Of a stretch of 64,000 nt of DNA, positions 39,441 to 48,131 are shown piece by piece; within the stretch, counting starts at the first letter, position 1, and each line of letters opens with the position of its first letter. The stretch is from NCBI GenBank assembly GCA_009379825.1, contig WHTA01000003.1, positions 62,001 through 126,000 of the forward strand, written 5' to 3'. Source of the stretch: Streptosporangiales bacterium. GTDB lineage: Bacteria > Actinomycetota > Actinomycetes > Streptosporangiales > WHST01. The position numbers and the translations under genes were made by a program. The notes beneath the pieces were generated by a model. The model worked only from the letters and a program-made list of their open reading frames with translations, searched no databases and had not been told where the DNA came from.

Positions 39441-42400
39441 TCACGCAGGGTGTGCCACCGGACGCGTCCGCGTCAACCGGCCGCCGGCGAGCCGGTACGC
39501 CTCGTCCACCTGGTCGAGGTCGGCGAGCCGGTGGGTGAGCAGCAGCACCGTACGGCCGGCGGTGGCTGCCAGCAGGTCGGTTACCAGGGCGGCTGCGGTC
39601 GGTTCGTCCAGGTGTTCGGCGGGTTCGTCGAGGATCACCACCGGGGTGTCGGCCAGCAGCACCCTGGCCAGTGCGATCCGCTGGCGCTCACCGCCCGAGA
39701 CCCTGCTGCCGTGCTCGCCGACCCTAGTGTGGATGCCGTCCGGCAGGCTCGCCAGCCAGTCGCCAAGCCGCGCCGCGGCGAGCGCGTCGCGCACCTCACC
39801 GTCGGTGGCGGAAGGCCGCGCCAGGCGGACGTTCTCCGCGACGGTGGAGTCGAAGAGGTAGGCGTCCTGTGCGCACAGCCCGACCACCCGCCGGGCGCGC
39901 ACCTCGGACCCGCCCACGGTCACCTGCCCGGCTTCCGGCGTCAGCTGGCCGAGCAGGACGTTCGCGAGCGTGCTCTTGCCGGCGCCGCTCGCACCGGTGA
40001 CGGCCACCCGGGCGCCAGCGGGCACGGTCAGGTGCAGCCGGTCGAGCACCGCCGGCCGGCCGTCCGCCCACCGCGCCGTGACCCCGGTGAGGCGCACGTC
40101 GTACGGCTGCCGCGGCCGTCCGGCCGGCTGGCGCCCGGCACCGGCGACGGCCGGGCGCGGCAGCGCGCGCAGCCGGCGAAGCGAGGCGAGCGAGCGCAGG
40201 CCGTGTCGCACGGCGTCCGGCACCGTGCCGAGCACGTCGGCCAGACCGAGCGGCACGAGCGCCACCACGGCCAGCGAGGTGCCGTCCAGGGTGCCCGCGC
40301 GCACCGCCTGCACGCCCTGCGCGAGCGCGTAGCAGCTGGCCAGCCCGGTCGCGGCGAGGACCACCGCGGCGCCGGCACCGACCCACCAGGCGCTGCGCGT
40401 CTCGGCCGCGCGCAGCCGTGCGTCCCGGTCGGCGACGGTGGTGTCGGTGCCGCCGTACGCGACCAGGTCGGGCAGGCCGTGCAGCAGCTCGGTCGTCGCG
40501 GCGGCGAGCGCCGCGCGCCTGGGCGGCACGGCCGCAGCCGCACGCCGCTGCGCGTACCCCACGAGTAGCGGCACCGCCACCACCGCGACCAGCGCCGCGG
40601 CGAGCAGCGTGCGGCCGGCGGCGGGCAGCAGGGCCGCGACGGCGACCACGGCGCCACCGGCGACGAGCGCGGCCGTCAGCAGCGGCAGCACCGCGCGCAG
40701 CAGCAGGTCGAGCACGGCGTCCACGTCGTCGACCAGCCTGCTGCCGAGGTCGCCGAGCCGGTACCGCTGCAGCTGCGCGGGCCCGAGCTCGGCGAGCCAC
40801 GCGTACACCCTGGCCCGCACCCGGGCGAGCACGGCGAACGCGGCGTCGTGGCCGAGCAGCCGTTCCGCGTACGTGAGCACGGCACGCGCCAGCCCGAACG
40901 CGCGCACGGCGACGATCGCGACCAGCAGGAACAGCACCGGCGGCTGCTCGGCCGCCCGCGAGATCAGCCAGCCGGACGTGGCGAGCAGCGCGACCCCCGC
41001 CCCGGCAGCGCCGACGCCGAGCGCCAGCGCCCCCGCCAACCGCACCGCGATGCCGACCGCCCCGAGCGGCCGGCCGCGGTCCGCGTCAGCCGGCCCCGCA
41101 GGAACCGGGTCGGCGGCGACCACCTCGGGCACGGCCGCCTGGGACGCCGGCAGATGCACCACCCGGTCGGCCGCCGCGAGCACGGCCGGACGGTGGGTGA
41201 CGACGACGGCCGTGGTGCCCCGCGCCCGCAGCGTCCGCAGCACCGCGAGCTCGGCGTCGGCGTCCAGGCCGGCCGTCGGCTCGTCCAGCAACAGCAGCGC
41301 CGGCCGGCGCACGAGCGCACGGGCGAGCGCGACCCGGCGGCGCTGGCCCTCGGACAGCAGCAGACCGCCCTCGCCGACCTCGCTCGCCGGGGCCAGCTCA
41401 CCGATCCCGGCCAGGCGCAGCGCCTCGGCGACCGCTGCCCCGTCGGCCGCCGGGGCACCGAGCCGCACGTTGTCGGCCACCGTGCCGGCGAACAGGTACG
41501 GCCGCTGCGGCACCCAGCCGAGCTGGCGCCGCCACGCGCCGAGGTCGTACGCGTCCAGCGGCCGGCCGGCGACGGTCACCCGCCCGGCGGCCGGCCACAC
41601 GAACCCCAGCAGCACGGCGAGCAGCGACGACTTGCCGCACCCGCTCGGTCCGGTCAGCGCCACCAGCTCGCCCGGCCGCACCTCGAGCGACGCGCCGGCG
41701 ACCGCCTCGCCGCGGTCGTACCGCACGGTCACGTCCTCGACCCGCACGACCTCGCGCCGCAGGTCGGGCACGTCGGCGGCGCCACCGCGCGCCGGCGTCG
41801 TCTCGAGCACCTCGAACACCCGCTGCGCCGCGGCCAGCCCGTCCATGCTCGCGTGGAAGTGCACACCGACCCGGCGCAGCGGCAGGTACGCCTCAGGGGC
41901 GAGCAGCAGCACCAACAGCCCGGTGGCCAGGTCGAGCTGGCCCTCCACCACGCGCAGCCCCACCCCGACCGCGACGAGCGCCACCGAGAACATGCTGAGC
42001 AGCTCGAGCACGAGCGCGGAGAGGAACGCCAGCCGCAACGTGGCCAGCGACTCCCGCCGGTACGCGTCGGTGACCCTGCGCACCCCCTCGGCCTGCGCGC
42101 GTGCCCGGTCGAAGACCTGCAGCGTCGGCAACCCGGCGACGACGTCCGCGAAGTGGTGCGCAAGCACGGCGAGGGCACGCCAGCGCCGGTCGCTGTGCCG
42201 CTGCGTCGCCAGCCCGACGAGCGCCATGAACACCGGCACCAGCGGCAGCGTCACGGCGACGATCACCGCGCTGACCGGGTCGGCCCCGACGAGCGTCGCG
42301 AAGACGAGCAACGGCACGGTGCACGCCAGCACCAGCTGCGGCAGGTAGCGCGCGAGGTAGCCGTCCAGCCCGTCGATGCCGCGGCCGACGAGCGTCGCGA

Positions 42401-42749
42401 GGCCACCGCTGCGCTGCCCGGTGAGCCAGCCGGGACCGAGCTCGAGCACGTGCGCGACCAGCCGCCGCCGCAGCGTCGACTTCACCCGCGCGGCCGCCGC
42501 GTGCGCGGTGACGTCCTGCAGCCAGGACAGTGCCGCCCGCGCCAGCACCGCGAGCGCGAGCGCGATCAGCGAGCCGCGGACGTCGCCTAGGTCGGCGCCG
42601 TCGAGGAACGCCGCGCTGACCACGTCGGCGAGCAGCGCCGCCTGCACCAGCAACAGCACCCCGGTGGCCGTGCCGGTGGCGACGCACGCGCCGAGGTAGC
42701 CGATGGTCGTGCGCGCGTAGCGCAGCAGCCGCGGGTCGAGCGGCCTCAT
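39441..42749 (-). CDS. cydDC: Fused CydD-CydC cysteine/glutathione-type ABC exporter for cytochrome bd assembly
   Basis: A 1102-residue protein joining CydD (about residues 1-540) and CydC (about 560-1102), each with six membrane segments and an ATPase. Walker A motifs are GPSGCGKSS and GASGAGKST; Walker B are LLLLDEPTAGLD and VVILDEPAEHLD. The first half has the signature LSEGQRRR instead of LSGGQ, the second SGGERQR. CydDC exports thiols needed to assemble the bd oxidase haems. ATG at 42749 overlaps the cydB stop (ATGA). It is the last gene of the cydA-cydB-cydDC operon. Confidence 0.96.
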   Translation of the reverse strand: MRPLDPRLLRYARTTIGYLGACVATGTATGVLLLVQAALLADVVSAAFLDGADLGDVRGSLIALALAVLARAALSWLQDVTAHAAAARVKSTLRRRLVAHVLELGPGWLTGQRSGGLATLVGRGIDGLDGYLARYLPQLVLACTVPLLVFATLVGADPVSAVIVAVTLPLVPVFMALVGLATQRHSDRRWRALAVLAHHFADVVAGLPTLQVFDRARAQAEGVRRVTDAYRRESLATLRLAFLSALVLELLSMFSVALVAVGVGLRVVEGQLDLATGLLVLLLAPEAYLPLRRVGVHFHASMDGLAAAQRVFEVLETTPARGGAADVPDLRREVVRVEDVTVRYDRGEAVAGASLEVRPGELVALTGPSGCGKSSLLAVLLGFVWPAAGRVTVAGRPLDAYDLGAWRRQLGWVPQRPYLFAGTVADNVRLGAPAADGAAVAEALRLAGIGELAPASEVGEGGLLLSEGQRRRVALARALVRRPALLLLDEPTAGLDADAELAVLRTLRARGTTAVVVTHRPAVLAAADRVVHLPASQAAVPEVVAADPVPAGPADADRGRPLGAVGIAVRLAGALALGVGAAGAGVALLATSGWLISRAAEQPPVLFLLVAIVAVRAFGLARAVLTYAERLLGHDAAFAVLARVRARVYAWLAELGPAQLQRYRLGDLGSRLVDDVDAVLDLLLRAVLPLLTAALVAGGAVVAVAALLPAAGRTLLAAALVAVVAVPLLVGYAQRRAAAAVPPRRAALAAATTELLHGLPDLVAYGGTDTTVADRDARLRAAETRSAWWVGAGAAVVLAATGLASCYALAQGVQAVRAGTLDGTSLAVVALVPLGLADVLGTVPDAVRHGLRSLASLRRLRALPRPAVAGAGRQPAGRPRQPYDVRLTGVTARWADGRPAVLDRLHLTVPAGARVAVTGASGAGKSTLANVLLGQLTPEAGQVTVGGSEVRARRVVGLCAQDAYLFDSTVAENVRLARPSATDGEVRDALAAARLGDWLASLPDGIHTRVGEHGSRVSGGERQRIALARVLLADTPVVILDEPAEHLDEPTAAALVTDLLAATAGRTVLLLTHRLADLDQVDEAYRLAGGRLTRTRPVAHPA

Positions 42750-43732
42750 GGCGCCAGCACCCGGCGCCTGAAGACCCAGTAGCTCCACGCCTGGTACGCG
42801 AGGACGAGTGGCGTGCAGATCACGGCGATCACCGTCAGGATGCGCAGTGCGTACGGCTGCGCGACCGAGTCCGCGAGGGTCAGCGACCACGCCGCGGTCG
42901 ACGTGGCCGGCACCGCGTCGGGGAACAGCGCGACGAACACGGTCGCCACCGCCGCCGCCACGCCCACCGCGGTGCCGGCGAACGCCCACCCGTCCGCACG
43001 CCGCCAGGCCGCGACCGACGCGACGAGCAGCGCCACCACCGCGAGCCCTGCGACGCCCGCCGACCCGGCGTCGCCGCGTGCGTACTGCACCTGGCCGAGG
43101 AAACCGGCGACCACGAGCACCACGGCAGGGGCCGCGTAGCGCGCGACCCGCAACGCACGCTCCCGCAACCCGCCGGTGGTTCGCAGCGCGAGGAACGTCG
43201 CACCGTGCAACACGCACAGGCCGAGCACCGCCGCCGCGCCGAGCACGCCGCCGAGCCCGTCCACGGCGACGACCGAGCCGGCGTACGTGCCGTCGCGGTC
43301 GAGGGGCAGGCCGTGCACGAGTGTCCCGAACACGGCGCCCCACAGCGCGGCGGGCAGTAGCGAGCCCAGGCAGACGACGGCGTCGCAGCGGCGGCGCCAG
43401 CGCGGGTCGTCGCGCTTGCCGCGGAACTCCAGCGCCACGCCCCGGCCGATCAGCGCGACGAGGATCGCCAGCATCGGCAGGTAGAACGCGCTCAGCATGG
43501 TGGCGTACCACGCGGGGAACGCCGCGAACGTCGCACCGACGGCGACGACCAACCAGACCTCGTTGCCGTCCCACACCGGGCCGATGGTCTGCAACATCGC
43601 CGCCCGGTCGTGCTCACCGCGCCGGCCGACGACCGGCAGCAGCGCGCCGACGCCGAAGTCGAACCCGTCGAGCACCAGGTAGCCCACCCAGAAGAACGCG
43701 ACCACCGCGAACCAGACGGTGCTGAGCTCCAT
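42746..43732 (-). CDS. cydB: Cytochrome bd ubiquinol/menaquinol oxidase subunit II
   Basis: A 328-residue membrane subunit with about nine segments. MELSTVWFAVVAFFWVGYLV and LDGFDFGVGALLP are the classical start of CydB, and GPVWDGNEVWLVVAVGATFA is the conserved loop. It stabilises the haem core in CydA. ATG at 43732 has GGGAG upstream and is 17 bases after the cydA stop. It is followed by cydDC with a four-base overlap. Confidence 0.97.
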   Translation of the reverse strand: MELSTVWFAVVAFFWVGYLVLDGFDFGVGALLPVVGRRGEHDRAAMLQTIGPVWDGNEVWLVVAVGATFAAFPAWYATMLSAFYLPMLAILVALIGRGVALEFRGKRDDPRWRRRCDAVVCLGSLLPAALWGAVFGTLVHGLPLDRDGTYAGSVVAVDGLGGVLGAAAVLGLCVLHGATFLALRTTGGLRERALRVARYAAPAVVLVVAGFLGQVQYARGDAGSAGVAGLAVVALLVASVAAWRRADGWAFAGTAVGVAAAVATVFVALFPDAVPATSTAAWSLTLADSVAQPYALRILTVIAVICTPLVLAYQAWSYWVFRRRVLAP

Positions 43733-43749
43733 GCCGATCTCCCAACCTT

Positions 43750-45168
43750 TCAGTACGCGAGGGTCAGCGGCGCGTCGGTGTCCGGCTCGTCCGCCGGCGG
43801 CTCGGCATCCGGATCCGGCGCGCCGTTGCGCGCGAGCTTGGTCAGCAGCCAGACCTCGACCGTGCCGAGCAACGCGTACACGGCGATGAAGACGGCGAGC
43901 GAGAACGCCACCTGGCCGGCCGCCGTACCCGGCGAGACGCCGTCGGCCGTCTGGAACAGCCCGAACGCCAGCCACGGCTGCCTACCCACCTCGGTGAAGA
44001 TCCAGCCGGCGCTGTTGGCCAGCAGCGGCAGCACCGGCAGCGCGAGCGCCGCGCGCGCCAGCCACCGGCTGCGTGGGAAGGCCGCGTGCCTCGTCTTTGC
44101 CGTACGTCGTAGCAACAGCAGACCGCCGAGCGCCGCAGCCACGGCGAGCATGCCGAACCCGATCATGAGCCGGAAGTTCCAGTACGTCGCGGGGACGTTC
44201 GGCAGGTAGTCGCCCGGGCCGTACGTGGCGACGTACTCCCGCTGGACGTCGCGGATGCCCTCGACCTCGCCGTCGAGCGTGCCGGTGGCGAGGAACGAGG
44301 AGAGGTAAGGGATCCGCAGGCTCCACACCTCTTCGCGGCCGTCCAGCGTGCCGACGGTGAACACGCTGAACGAGGCCGGCCGCGACGTCTCGTACAGCGC
44401 CTCGGCGGCGGCCATCTTCATCGGCTGCTGCTCGGTCATCACCTTGCCCTGCGCGTCGCCGCTCACCGCGACCCCGATGCCCGCCACGAGGACGACCGCG
44501 CAGGCGGCCTTCGCGGCCGTGCGGAACACCTCGGGCTGGTGCTGCCTGGCCAGGTGCCAGAACGCGATCCCGGCGACGAGCGCGCCCGCGGTGACGAAGC
44601 TCGCGGCGGCAGTGTGCGCGTACGCGACGACGGCCGTCTCGTTGGTGAGCACCGCGACGAAGTCGGTGAGCACGGCCTCGCCCGTGCGCGGGTCGACGCG
44701 GAACCCGACGGGGTGCTGCATCCACGAGTTCGCGGCGAGGATCACGTACGCCGACACCTGCGTGCCGACCGCGACGACCCAGATGCACGCCAGGTGGACG
44801 CGTCGGGGTAGCCGCTGCCAGCCGAAGATCCACAGCCCGAGGAACGTCGACTCGAGGAAGAACGCGAGCAGCGCCTCCAGCGCGAGCGGCACGCCGAGGA
44901 TCTCGCCGACGAACACCGAGAAGGCGCTCCAGTTCATGCCGAACTGCAGCTCCTGCACCAGTCCGGTGACCACACCCACGGCGAAGTTGACGATCAGCAG
45001 CTTGCCGAAGAACTGCGTCAGCCGCAGGTAGCGCTCGGCGCCGGTACGCACCCAGGCCGTCTGGAAGCCGGCGACGATCGCGGACAGCCCCATGCTCAGC
45101 GGGACGAACAGGAAGTGGAACACCGTCGTGACGCCGAACTGCAAGCGCGCCAGGTCGAGCACGTCCAC
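43750..45168 (-). CDS. cydA: Cytochrome bd oxidase subunit I
   Basis: A 472-residue haem-bearing subunit that oxidises menaquinol and reduces oxygen at low tension. It has DLARLQFGVTTVFHFLFVPL with the haem b595 His, the GRQPW signature (TEVGRQPWLAFG, near residue 390), and the KMAAAEALYETSRPA stretch. The quinol (Q) loop is of the short type. The operon promoter is shared with the divergent blaI gene, and three BlaI-type palindromes lie between them. It starts at ATG 45168. Confidence 0.97.
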   Translation of the reverse strand: MDVLDLARLQFGVTTVFHFLFVPLSMGLSAIVAGFQTAWVRTGAERYLRLTQFFGKLLIVNFAVGVVTGLVQELQFGMNWSAFSVFVGEILGVPLALEALLAFFLESTFLGLWIFGWQRLPRRVHLACIWVVAVGTQVSAYVILAANSWMQHPVGFRVDPRTGEAVLTDFVAVLTNETAVVAYAHTAAASFVTAGALVAGIAFWHLARQHQPEVFRTAAKAACAVVLVAGIGVAVSGDAQGKVMTEQQPMKMAAAEALYETSRPASFSVFTVGTLDGREEVWSLRIPYLSSFLATGTLDGEVEGIRDVQREYVATYGPGDYLPNVPATYWNFRLMIGFGMLAVAAALGGLLLLRRTAKTRHAAFPRSRWLARAALALPVLPLLANSAGWIFTEVGRQPWLAFGLFQTADGVSPGTAAGQVAFSLAVFIAVYALLGTVEVWLLTKLARNGAPDPDAEPPADEPDTDAPLTLAY

Positions 45169-45185
45169 GTCGCACCTCCGTCAAT

Positions 45186-45237
45186 CTACGACAACTCGTA
45201 GTAGATACTACGCCTCGTAGTACGACGTCATGTCGTA
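45186..45237. promoter_or_regulatory. Three tandem palindromes, probable BlaI operators between cydA and blaI
   Basis: Three perfect palindromes fill the 71-base divergent gap: CTACGACAACTCGTAG (45186-45201), TACTACGCCTCGTAGTA (45206-45222) and TACGACGTCATGTCGTA (45221-45237); the last two share two bases. All contain TACGA/TCGTA half-sites, as expected for a dimeric winged-helix repressor of the BlaI/MecI/CopY type. The right one ends two bases before the blaI start. They leave little room for other elements, so both promoters should be covered by the repressor. Confidence 0.85.
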
Positions 45238-45239
45238 AG

Positions 45240-45617
45240 ATGGCTCACATGACTCGGCTCGGCGACCTGGAGCGGCAGGTGATGGAGCGGCTGTGGGCCG
45301 CAAGCGTTCCGCTGACCGTACGGACGATCCACGCGCAGCTCGCCGCCGATCGCGAGCTGGCGTACACCACGGTGATGACCGTCCTCGACCGACTGGCTAA
45401 GAAGGGCGTGGTGCAGCGGGTCCGCGACGGCCGGGCGTACCTCTACGAGCCGGTGGCCGCGCGGGAGCAGCTGGTCGCCGACCTGATGCACGAGGCACTC
45501 TCCGGCACCGACGACCGCTCCGCCGCGCTGGTCCGGTTCGTCGACTCCGCCTCCGCGGAGGAGGCCGCCGCCATGCGCGCAGCGCTGGCAAAACTGGAGC
45601 CCCCCGAGGGCGACTGA
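45240..45617 (+). CDS. blaI: BlaI/MecI/CopY-family transcriptional repressor
   Basis: A 125-residue winged-helix repressor. RLGDLERQVMERLWAASVPL, the recognition helix LAYTTVMTVLDRLAKKG and the C-terminal dimerisation helix are all present. BlaI proteins are inactivated by cleavage when their BlaR-type partner is triggered; the M56 peptidase gene follows 58 bases downstream. ATG at 45240 is chosen; ATG 45249 is possible. With no beta-lactamase or PBP gene nearby, the divergent cytochrome bd operon is the obvious target. Confidence 0.94.
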   Translation: MAHMTRLGDLERQVMERLWAASVPLTVRTIHAQLAADRELAYTTVMTVLDRLAKKGVVQRVRDGRAYLYEPVAAREQLVADLMHEALSGTDDRSAALVRFVDSASAEEAAAMRAALAKLEPPEGD

Positions 45618-45675: not shown

Positions 45676-46572
45676 ATGGTGACGCCCGTGGTGCTCGGGG
45701 TGCTCGCGCTCGTGCTCGCGGGACCGGCGCCAGCACTGCTCGCCAGGGCGTCCTGGCCGCACCTGGTGCCGCGCGCCACGGCGGTGCTGTGGCAGGCGCT
45801 CGCCCTCGCTGCCGTCCTCGCCGCGTTGGGGGCCGGTCTCGCGCTGGCCACCGGGCTGCTCGTCGCGCAGCCGCTCGGCACCGTCGAGCTCGTCCTGTAC
45901 GCGGCGGTCCTCGTCCTCACTGTGTTGGTGGCAGGCCGGCTCGCGTGGGCGGTGGTCTCGCTCGCCGTGCACACCCGCAGCAGGCGCCGGCGGCACCGCG
46001 CCCTCGTCGACCTGCTCGCCCAGCACGACGGGCTCGAACCTGGCCTGCGGGTGCTCGCCGAGCAGACACCCGTCGTCTACTGCCTGCCCGCGGTCCGGGA
46101 CGCACGGGTCGTGCTGTCGGCGGGCGCGCTCGCCCAGCTCGACCCGGACGAGCTGGGCGCGGTGCTCGCGCACGAACGCGCCCACCTGCGCGCCCGGCAC
46201 GACCTGGTGCTCGAGGCGTTCGGCGCGCTGCGGCACGCGTTTCCGCGGTTCGTCCGCAGCCACACCGCGCTCGAGCAGAACCGCATCCTGGTCGAGCTGC
46301 TGGCCGACGACGCGGCCAGGCGCAGGGTCGGCGCCGCGCCACTGGCCCGCGCCCTGGTGAAGCTGGCCGACGGCAGCACCCCGGAAGCGGCGCTGGCCGC
46401 GGCCTGCCAGGCCACGGTGCTGCGCGTGAACCGGCTGGCCGAACCCACGCGCCGCTACGACGCGCTGGCTGCAGCAACCTACGCCGCCGCCATCGCACTC
46501 GTCGCCCTGCCCACGGTCTTCGTCGCCGTCCCGTGGCTCGCCGACGTCCTCCGCGCCCTGGTCGGCGCATGA
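45676..46572 (+). CDS. M56-family membrane metallopeptidase (BlaR1-like, without sensor domain)
   Basis: A 298-residue membrane protein. Two or three N-terminal segments are followed by the zinc site VLAHERAHLRARHD (HExxH, about residue 172) and ELLADDAARR, and a C-terminal segment. The extracellular penicillin-binding domain of BlaR1 is absent, so the activating signal is unlikely to be a beta-lactam bound in that way. It probably acts on the BlaI protein encoded just upstream. Its stop and that of the convergent P1 peptidase are 28 bases apart. Confidence 0.9.
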   Translation: MVTPVVLGVLALVLAGPAPALLARASWPHLVPRATAVLWQALALAAVLAALGAGLALATGLLVAQPLGTVELVLYAAVLVLTVLVAGRLAWAVVSLAVHTRSRRRRHRALVDLLAQHDGLEPGLRVLAEQTPVVYCLPAVRDARVVLSAGALAQLDPDELGAVLAHERAHLRARHDLVLEAFGALRHAFPRFVRSHTALEQNRILVELLADDAARRRVGAAPLARALVKLADGSTPEAALAAACQATVLRVNRLAEPTRRYDALAAATYAAAIALVALPTVFVAVPWLADVLRALVGA

Positions 46573-46600: not shown

Positions 46601-48040
46601 TCAGCGCAGGAGTAAGTGAGCCGTTCCGCGGCGGGTGTACAGCACGGCGCCTACGGCGCCGAGAACACCGAGCGTGCCGATACCGACGGTACTGGCATCC
46701 CCCAACGGCCAGCCCCCGTGACCGCCGTTGGAGCCCGCGGGCGGAACGGCAGCAGCGTTGCCGTCCTCGCTATCGCTGTCCGGTGAGTCGCCGTCCTGGG
46801 TGCTGTTGCCCGGCTCGGGGACCGGGGTCTGCTTCAGCTTCTTCTCTGCCCGCTTGAAGGACGCGGGGGTGACGTCCGGTGCCTTGCCTGCGTTGCGCCA
46901 CCTGTCGAGCTGGGGCATGTCGGCACAGGCCGACGGGTACTTGTCACAGTAGCTGCGGGTCGTGCCCTTGCTCTCGGCAGAGAGGATGGCGCGGGTGATC
47001 GCGCGGGCCAGGGTGCTCGAGCCGGCATCGAAGATGCTGTTCAACGTACGGCCGTCGGTGGGGTTGTTGACCTGCAGCGGCTTGCCGTCGCCGGTGGAGA
47101 CGCCGAAGACGGTGTCGCCGTCGGACAGCGTGTGGCTCGGCTGGATCGCCCGGGCCATGCCGTCGTGGGCGTTGCCCGACATGCGTGCGGCTGCGGCCTT
47201 CTCCAGGGGTGCGTTGGTCGCGACCACTGCGATGGTGGTGTTGAGCGAGTCGCTGTTCGGCTTGGTGGCGGTGCCGGTCGGGCACTCGGTCTTGGCGGGC
47301 TTCTGGTAGCCGGCGAACTCGTCGCCGATGCCGTAGGCGACGCCCCACAGCGAGCAGTCCGCCGAGTTGACCGTCGAGCCCACGGAGTTCACGATCACCA
47401 TGGCGCCCACGTAGATACCGTCGCCGAGGTCGACGCTGGCGGTGCCTACGCCGCCGCGCAGCCCACCAGCGCGGGCGCCGGTGCCACCGCCAAGGCTGCC
47501 CTGCCGCACCGGACCGCCCGAGGTCGCCTCCGCGGCGAGGTAGCCCCACGGAGCCGAGGTACGCGCCTTCGGGTCGCCGCCGCGGCCGAGGTCGTAGATG
47601 TCGGCCGCCGGCACGATGGGCGCCACACCCCCTGGGCCCAGCGGGATGCCCTCACCGCGGTCCTCCAGCCACCGGATGATCCCGTCGGAGGCCGACAGGC
47701 CGTACATGCTCGAACCGCCGAGCTGGATCGCGTTGACGCCGGGGTTGGAGTTGAGCGGGCTGAGGAGGTCGGTCTCCTTCGTCGCCGGGGCGCCGCCGCG
47801 TTGGTCGACACCGGCCACCGACATCTTCGGTGTGTACACAACTGACGTGCCGGTCAGGTACGGAGCGGTGTCGGACTGGACTTGACCGACCTTGATACCC
47901 GGTACGTCGGTGATGGCGTTGTTCGCGCCGGGCTTCCCTGGGACAGTCTCGGCGGACGCGGTTGGTGTGACAGCCACGAAGAAACCGACCCGGCAGGTGA
48001 GCACTGCGCCGAGCAGAAGGGCAGTAGGCCGTCGTTTCAT
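46601..48040 (-). CDS. Secreted P1-family (DmpA/S58) peptidase with C-terminal membrane anchor
   Basis: A 479-residue Ntn-type hydrolase. Signal peptide about residues 1-32 (MKRRPTALLLGAVL), then AITDVPGIKVGQVQS, the family opening. The self-cleavage/nucleophile site is SLNTTIAVVATNAPL, in which the Thr after Asn becomes the new N terminus. A Pro/Ser/Asp linker leads to a C-terminal hydrophobic segment (STVGIGTLGVLGAVGAVLY) and TRRGTAHLLLR, which would tether it to the membrane outside the cell. Relatives release N-terminal D- or beta-amino acids or cut nylon oligomers. The ATG has GGAGG upstream. Confidence 0.9.
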   Translation of the reverse strand: MKRRPTALLLGAVLTCRVGFFVAVTPTASAETVPGKPGANNAITDVPGIKVGQVQSDTAPYLTGTSVVYTPKMSVAGVDQRGGAPATKETDLLSPLNSNPGVNAIQLGGSSMYGLSASDGIIRWLEDRGEGIPLGPGGVAPIVPAADIYDLGRGGDPKARTSAPWGYLAAEATSGGPVRQGSLGGGTGARAGGLRGGVGTASVDLGDGIYVGAMVIVNSVGSTVNSADCSLWGVAYGIGDEFAGYQKPAKTECPTGTATKPNSDSLNTTIAVVATNAPLEKAAAARMSGNAHDGMARAIQPSHTLSDGDTVFGVSTGDGKPLQVNNPTDGRTLNSIFDAGSSTLARAITRAILSAESKGTTRSYCDKYPSACADMPQLDRWRNAGKAPDVTPASFKRAEKKLKQTPVPEPGNSTQDGDSPDSDSEDGNAAAVPPAGSNGGHGGWPLGDASTVGIGTLGVLGAVGAVLYTRRGTAHLLLR

Positions 48041-48081
48041 GGAGCCTCCGATCTCAGACGCGAGAGCCGCCGGCGTGGGAA

Positions 48082-48131
48082 GAGACGCCGCGTCTCCGCA
48101 AGGGATGGATACGGGCGCCCGCATGGGCGCC
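48082..48131 (-). terminator. Two GC hairpins downstream of the GntR gene
   Basis: The 184-base gap between the GntR gene and the P1 peptidase contains two perfect hairpins: GAGACG-CCG-CGTCTC (48082-48096) and GGCGCCC-GCAT-GGGCGCC (48114-48131). They lie after the GntR stop in its direction of reading and before the peptidase start. Termination of the amidase-GntR transcript is the likely role. No coding sequence is seen in the gap. Confidence 0.45.

Follow-up and report, generated by a model that had tools for sequence, protein, structure and literature searches.

A divergent cydA–blaI locus with an array of predicted BlaI operators and its recurrence among actinobacteria

The cydA–blaI locus and its operator array

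The window, by which we mean the whole 64-kb stretch of DNA analysed here, comes from an actinobacterium with a genome of 6.15 Mb. It contains the genes for a cytochrome bd oxidase and, on the opposite strand, the genes for a BlaI-family repressor and a membrane protease (Table 1). The cydA and cydB genes are accompanied by a fused cydDC, the product of which has a role in bd assembly. This gene content agrees with that given in the preliminary description. A longer frame of cydB (42746–43975) matched PF02322 with an E-value of 1.5e-95. The protease gene has as its convergent neighbour a gene (window 46601–48124) for an S58-family peptidase, whose N-terminus resembles a signal sequence and whose C-terminal part includes a hydrophobic stretch; it has no evident tie to the BlaI/protease switch proposed below.

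Table 1. Genes and predicted regulatory features of the locus (window coordinates)
Feature	Position	Strand	Remarks
cydDC, fused thiol-reductant ABC exporter	39441..42728	-	1095-aa single frame; CydD and CydC equivalog matches
cydB, cytochrome bd subunit II	42746..43795	-	inner start assumed
cydA, cytochrome bd subunit I	43750..45168	-	PF01654, E 1e-158; GTG start, GGAGGTG ahead
divergent promoter/operator region	45169..45239	.	71 bp, between cydA and blaI start codons
operator 1	45187..45203	.	TACGAC-AACTC-GTAGTA; one arm mismatch in common register
candidate cydA -10 element	45205..45210	-	TAGTAT; weak, predicted; overlaps edge of operator 2
operator 2	45206..45222	.	TACTAC-GCCTC-GTAGTA; perfect; 19 bp start-to-start from operator 1
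operator 3	45221..45237	.	TACGAC-GTCAT-GTCGTA; perfect; 15 bp from operator 2
blaI, Penicillinase_R repressor	45240..45617	+	PF03965; clade of M. tuberculosis Rv1846c
membrane gluzincin-type protease (mycobacterial-type BlaR)	45676..46572	+	298 aa; HERAH at residue 166

The gap between cydA and blaI holds three predicted 17-bp BlaI sites that share one dyad, TACKAC-N5-GTMGTA. Operators 2 and 3 overlap by 2 bp, and the array is positioned over the start regions of both cydA and blaI. The preliminary description had spoken of three perfect palindromes. This is correct if the register is allowed to shift, as operator 1, when read from one base earlier, forms a perfect 6-4-6 palindrome (CTACGA-CAAC-TCGTAG, 45186–45201), but it does not hold in a common register. 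Similarly, the statement that the whole gap is made of operators applies to most of the gap, the three sites covering about 51 of the 71 bp, but not to the remainder.

We assessed the array against shuffled sequences and against the rest of the DNA. When the gap was dinucleotide-shuffled 20,000 times, three non-overlapping palindromes never appeared; two palindromes were present in 55 of the shuffles, and any match to the motif in 51. A weight matrix derived from the blaI promoters of other genomes gave exactly three matches of at least 15 bits in the window, all of them in the gap. Exact sites numbered five in the whole genome, three of which are those of the cydA–blaI gap; the other two (L006 and L010) appear intragenic, within coding frames, and were dropped as regulon members. 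Sites with one mismatch were disregarded, their genome-wide number (48) being below that of a reversed-pattern control (125).

A scan of the gap revealed no sigma-70-type promoter pair. In addition to the candidate listed in Table 1, a second weak -10 candidate for cydA, TAGATT, lies closer to the start, and no TANNNT was found in the gap for blaI. Operator 3 ends 2 bp ahead of the blaI start codon, so that a ribosome-binding site of the usual kind has no space within 45221–45240. Possible explanations are a leaderless blaI mRNA or an actual start further in, at the ATG of position 45249.

The repressor and the protease

The repressor matched PF03965 (Penicillinase_R) with 100.4 bits against a cut-off of 22.6, and its entire sequence could be aligned with PDB 2g9w, which we take to be M. 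tuberculosis BlaI (Rv1846c). In a tree built from a short alignment with an arbitrary midpoint root, it grouped with M. tuberculosis BlaI, and the paralogues L002, L003 and L004 of the same genome fell outside (split support 100/99). Within the inner clade, where the order is weakly resolved, the mycobacterial BlaIs are surrounded, with modest support, by BlaIs encoded next to cydA, a placement that hints that the adjacency of blaI and cydA is old. The genome has four more BlaI-family genes (L002–L005), which have M56-like genes nearby and lack the cydA–blaI operator; at least one of them (L004) is near a multicopper oxidase gene.

The preliminary description had noted a partner protein without a penicillin sensor domain, and a Pfam profile search accordingly found no C-terminal penicillin-binding domain in the 298-residue protease. 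Homologues with an adjacent blaI are of similar size (280–329 residues). The HExxH residues H166, E167 and H170 as well as E207, which is probably the metal-ligand glutamate downstream of this motif, are invariant in 32 proteins, and the protein has several hydrophobic segments. Its score was above the Pfam cut-off for M48 (33.2 vs 20.3) and below that for M56 (25.8 vs 31), while its confidently predicted structure (pLDDT 92.6) matched both ZMPSTE24/Ste24, of family M48, and BlaR1, these matches being weak (E about 0.05, low TM-scores). Since M48 passes, M56 fails and the fold matches are weak, the protease appears to lie between the two families, and we call it M56-like. An invariant cysteine in a YC motif, C136, was considered as a redox sensor and dropped as non-specific, because the BlaI-linked paralogues of the same genome have it too.

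Conservation of the operators at cydA

We collected 80 BlaI-like loci by protein similarity alone, together with the CydA loci of 60 relatives. Whether the gene order recurs in other actinobacteria had been raised in the preliminary description; cydA divergent from blaI and the protease gene was seen in many genera, including Microlunatus, Kribbella, Desertihabitans, Kineococcus, Phytoactinopolyspora, Nocardioides, Actinomycetospora, Actinoplanes, Aeromicrobium and Kineosporia. Forty-five distinct gaps were analysed, of which 28 had been obtained without use of the motif (25 at the main cydA and three at a second cydA) and 17 by pattern. Every one of the 28 motif-independent gaps, and all 45 overall, contained one or more sites scoring at least 16 bits, so that the palindromes, the absence of which from the same layout would have spoken against the proposal, are in fact conserved across many genera. 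Two or three sites were present in 43 of the 45 gaps. The commonest spacings, 19 bp (26 neighbouring pairs, a count inflated by loci that had been fetched through a 19-bp pattern) and 15 bp (13 pairs), are both those of the window.

A search of 395 genomes of the class for two sites 19 bp apart gave one copy each in 24 genomes, and the reversed pattern gave none. In all 24 the pair lies directly upstream of cydA, with blaI on the other side in 19, the window included. In four genomes of the same order (L241, L245, L247 and L248), blaI and the protease gene are divergent from a second CydA gene, the product of which is about 31% identical, with paired sites between them; the one second CydA that was checked is Cyt_bd_oxida_I by Pfam. 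Two of these four genomes (G024 and G041) are also among six relatives whose main cydA has no site. In Knoellia (L115), a CydC gene and a partial CydD gene are followed on the same strand by blaI, an arrangement suggestive of an operon.

As a measure of conservation where blaI is elsewhere, we used a weight matrix trained solely on blaI promoters without a nearby cydA; its matches at cydA are therefore independent of the training set. For most cydA loci it gave sites of at least 18 bits, roughly between -30 and -130 relative to cydA; the 95% points of shuffled sequences were at most 11 bits. Among 28 cydA loci of the same order with no blaI in the fetched flank, 22 had such a site within about 110 bp; none was found at the main cydA of six relatives (L024 and L026–L030). 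Eight named genomes were included, two of Mycobacterium and one each of Mycobacteroides, Rhodococcus, Nocardia, Gordonia, Williamsia and Aldersonia. In seven of them, one of the 3–6 exact sites per genome lies 11–111 bp from the cydA match, and the eighth, Aldersonia, has a weaker cydA site of 19.5 bits.

The ATP synthase genes are preceded by a site in the two Mycobacterium species, Rhodococcus and the Mycobacteroides (L156). In the last of these, two BlaI-type sites (at 1501 and 1524 of L159, 23 bp apart) lie just ahead of a gene for a bc1-type cytochrome b, about 62 kb from blaI; this cytochrome is possibly an alternative QcrB under BlaI. These additional targets are respiratory. BlaI-type sites were also seen before DUF3817 genes in Gordonia and Williamsia (L165 and L170) and before DUF4383 genes in the two Mycobacterium species (L153 and L160), and these small genes are recurrent candidates for the BlaI regulon. 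In another genome of the same order (L188), a site (at 1501) immediately precedes a WhiB-family gene.

A proposed respiratory switch

The operator array, its conservation and its specificity for cydA promoters can be read directly from the genomes. In line with the proposal of the preliminary description that BlaI controls the bd oxidase, operators occur in all 28 motif-independent gaps, most cydA genes distant from blaI keep a site, and the M. tuberculosis literature agrees: BlaI of this organism binds the promoters of cytochrome bd and ATP synthase, as stated in a passage of PMC5473688 (2017) that cites Sala 2009, and it binds and represses Rv1303-atp (PMC12565901). It is thus very probable, as judged from sequence, that BlaI controls cydA in the present organism. 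It need not be the dominant regulator, as mycobacterial cydAB is also under RegX3 and Crp (PMC7719681; PMC7739888).

We propose that BlaI dimers would bind the array of two to three sites and repress both the cydA-cydB-cydDC operon and, by autoregulation, the blaI–protease operon. A signal of a failing main respiratory branch or membrane would activate the membrane metalloprotease, which would then inactivate BlaI, by cleavage or by another route; derepression of both operons would provide the cell with the alternative bd oxidase. We regard the protease step as probable. The chances that the signal is respiratory seem to us about even, our best guess being lost flux through the copper-dependent bcc-aa3 branch. 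Published observations point to this branch. Passages of the respective papers describe a joint increase of the bd and atp operons in a copper-starved M. tuberculosis sigC mutant, where blaI is also discussed (PMC7924339), and in M. abscessus treated with clofazimine (PMC8765290), as well as a requirement of blaR for growth with haem or haemoglobin as the iron source (PMC7058343); these passages do not ascribe the effects to BlaR. The recurrence of the same arrangement across Actinobacteria makes it most likely that what the repressor–protease pair controls is respiration and not antibiotic resistance.

Autoregulation is common among BlaI-family repressors, and given the position of operator 3 next to the blaI start codon, the whole array could serve blaI only, with cydA a mere divergent neighbour under other control. 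This we find hardly credible, because the sites are kept at the 22 cydA loci that have no blaI nearby and at cydA in the named mycobacteria, Nocardia, Rhodococcus, Gordonia and Williamsia, and because a distantly related second bd oxidase shows the same arrangement. A β-lactam-responsive system of the BlaI/BlaR1 type, by which the bd oxidase would have been recruited for cell-wall drug tolerance, is suggested by the family names and by M. tuberculosis, in which BlaI controls blaC and amoxicillin-clavulanate raises cydAB and blaI-blaR (as given in a passage of PMC5473688). Such a system is nevertheless unlikely here: the protease has no penicillin-binding domain, and the tandem operator is found solely at cydA throughout the class. 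The earlier statement that no β-lactam resistance gene is nearby held for the genes identified, and the class A β-lactamase-like genes of the genome, on other contigs, are without the operator.

The repressor could also be of the copper-responsive CopY/TcrY kind and tune the bd oxidase to copper supply, the protease being an accessory. CopY_TcrY was its best match in NCBIfam, the paralogue L004 adjoins the multicopper oxidase gene, and the bd oxidase needs no copper, according to a passage of PMC7924339. We nonetheless judge this very unlikely, as the CopY_TcrY score of 42.7 bits is far below the cut-off of 121.95, the copper-linked paralogue belongs to a separate clade, and nearly all BlaI loci encode a membrane protease as partner, which is indicative of a protease switch. 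CopY/TcrY and the present BlaI thus belong to the same Penicillinase_R superfamily but differ in this score and in the adjacent protease gene.

Staphylococcus BlaI/BlaR1 and MecI/MecR1 have a winged-helix repressor and TAC/GTA palindromic operators. The present locus resembles them in its TAC/GTA palindromes, divergent target and membrane gluzincin protease, of which BlaR1 is a weak fold match. Unlike these systems, it has no extracellular penicillin-binding sensor and no β-lactamase target, its target being a terminal oxidase. The BlaI–BlaR pair of M. tuberculosis (Rv1846c and Rv1845c) is closer, with a BlaI of the same clade and the same type of small, sensor-less protease, and its regulon shares the site upstream of bd oxidase genes that is seen here and in the relatives. 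In the mycobacteria examined, however, blaI is away from cydA, whereas here the two are adjacent and separated by a three-site array; in contrast to the M. tuberculosis-type regulon, this genome has no operator near atpB (L192) or at the β-lactamase-like genes. A regulatory link between BlaI and cytochrome bd is already reported in one species, M. tuberculosis. What appears to be new is the cis-encoded divergent locus, with its array of two to three sites at recurring spacings, its occurrence in many actinobacterial families and its association with a second bd oxidase; we found no description of the divergent cydA–blaI locus in the open-access papers searched.

The data suggest that respiration is an ancestral role of the BlaI pair. 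A more tentative reading, to which we give less than even weight, is that the actinobacterial BlaI/BlaR pair was in the first place a cytochrome bd switch, with a protease that senses failure of the bcc-aa3 branch, and that the mycobacterial targets, such as β-lactamase and ATP synthase, among others, were gained later, when blaI left cydA. The conserved pair also suggests that the name BlaI/BlaR is only an analogy in this class, and that the β-lactam response may represent an offshoot of a respiratory circuit. In mycobacteria, cytochrome bd confers tolerance to drugs that target respiration, and the switching-on of its genes is only partly understood; the repressor–protease pair, being conserved and cis-encoded, would offer a direct handle on the signal.
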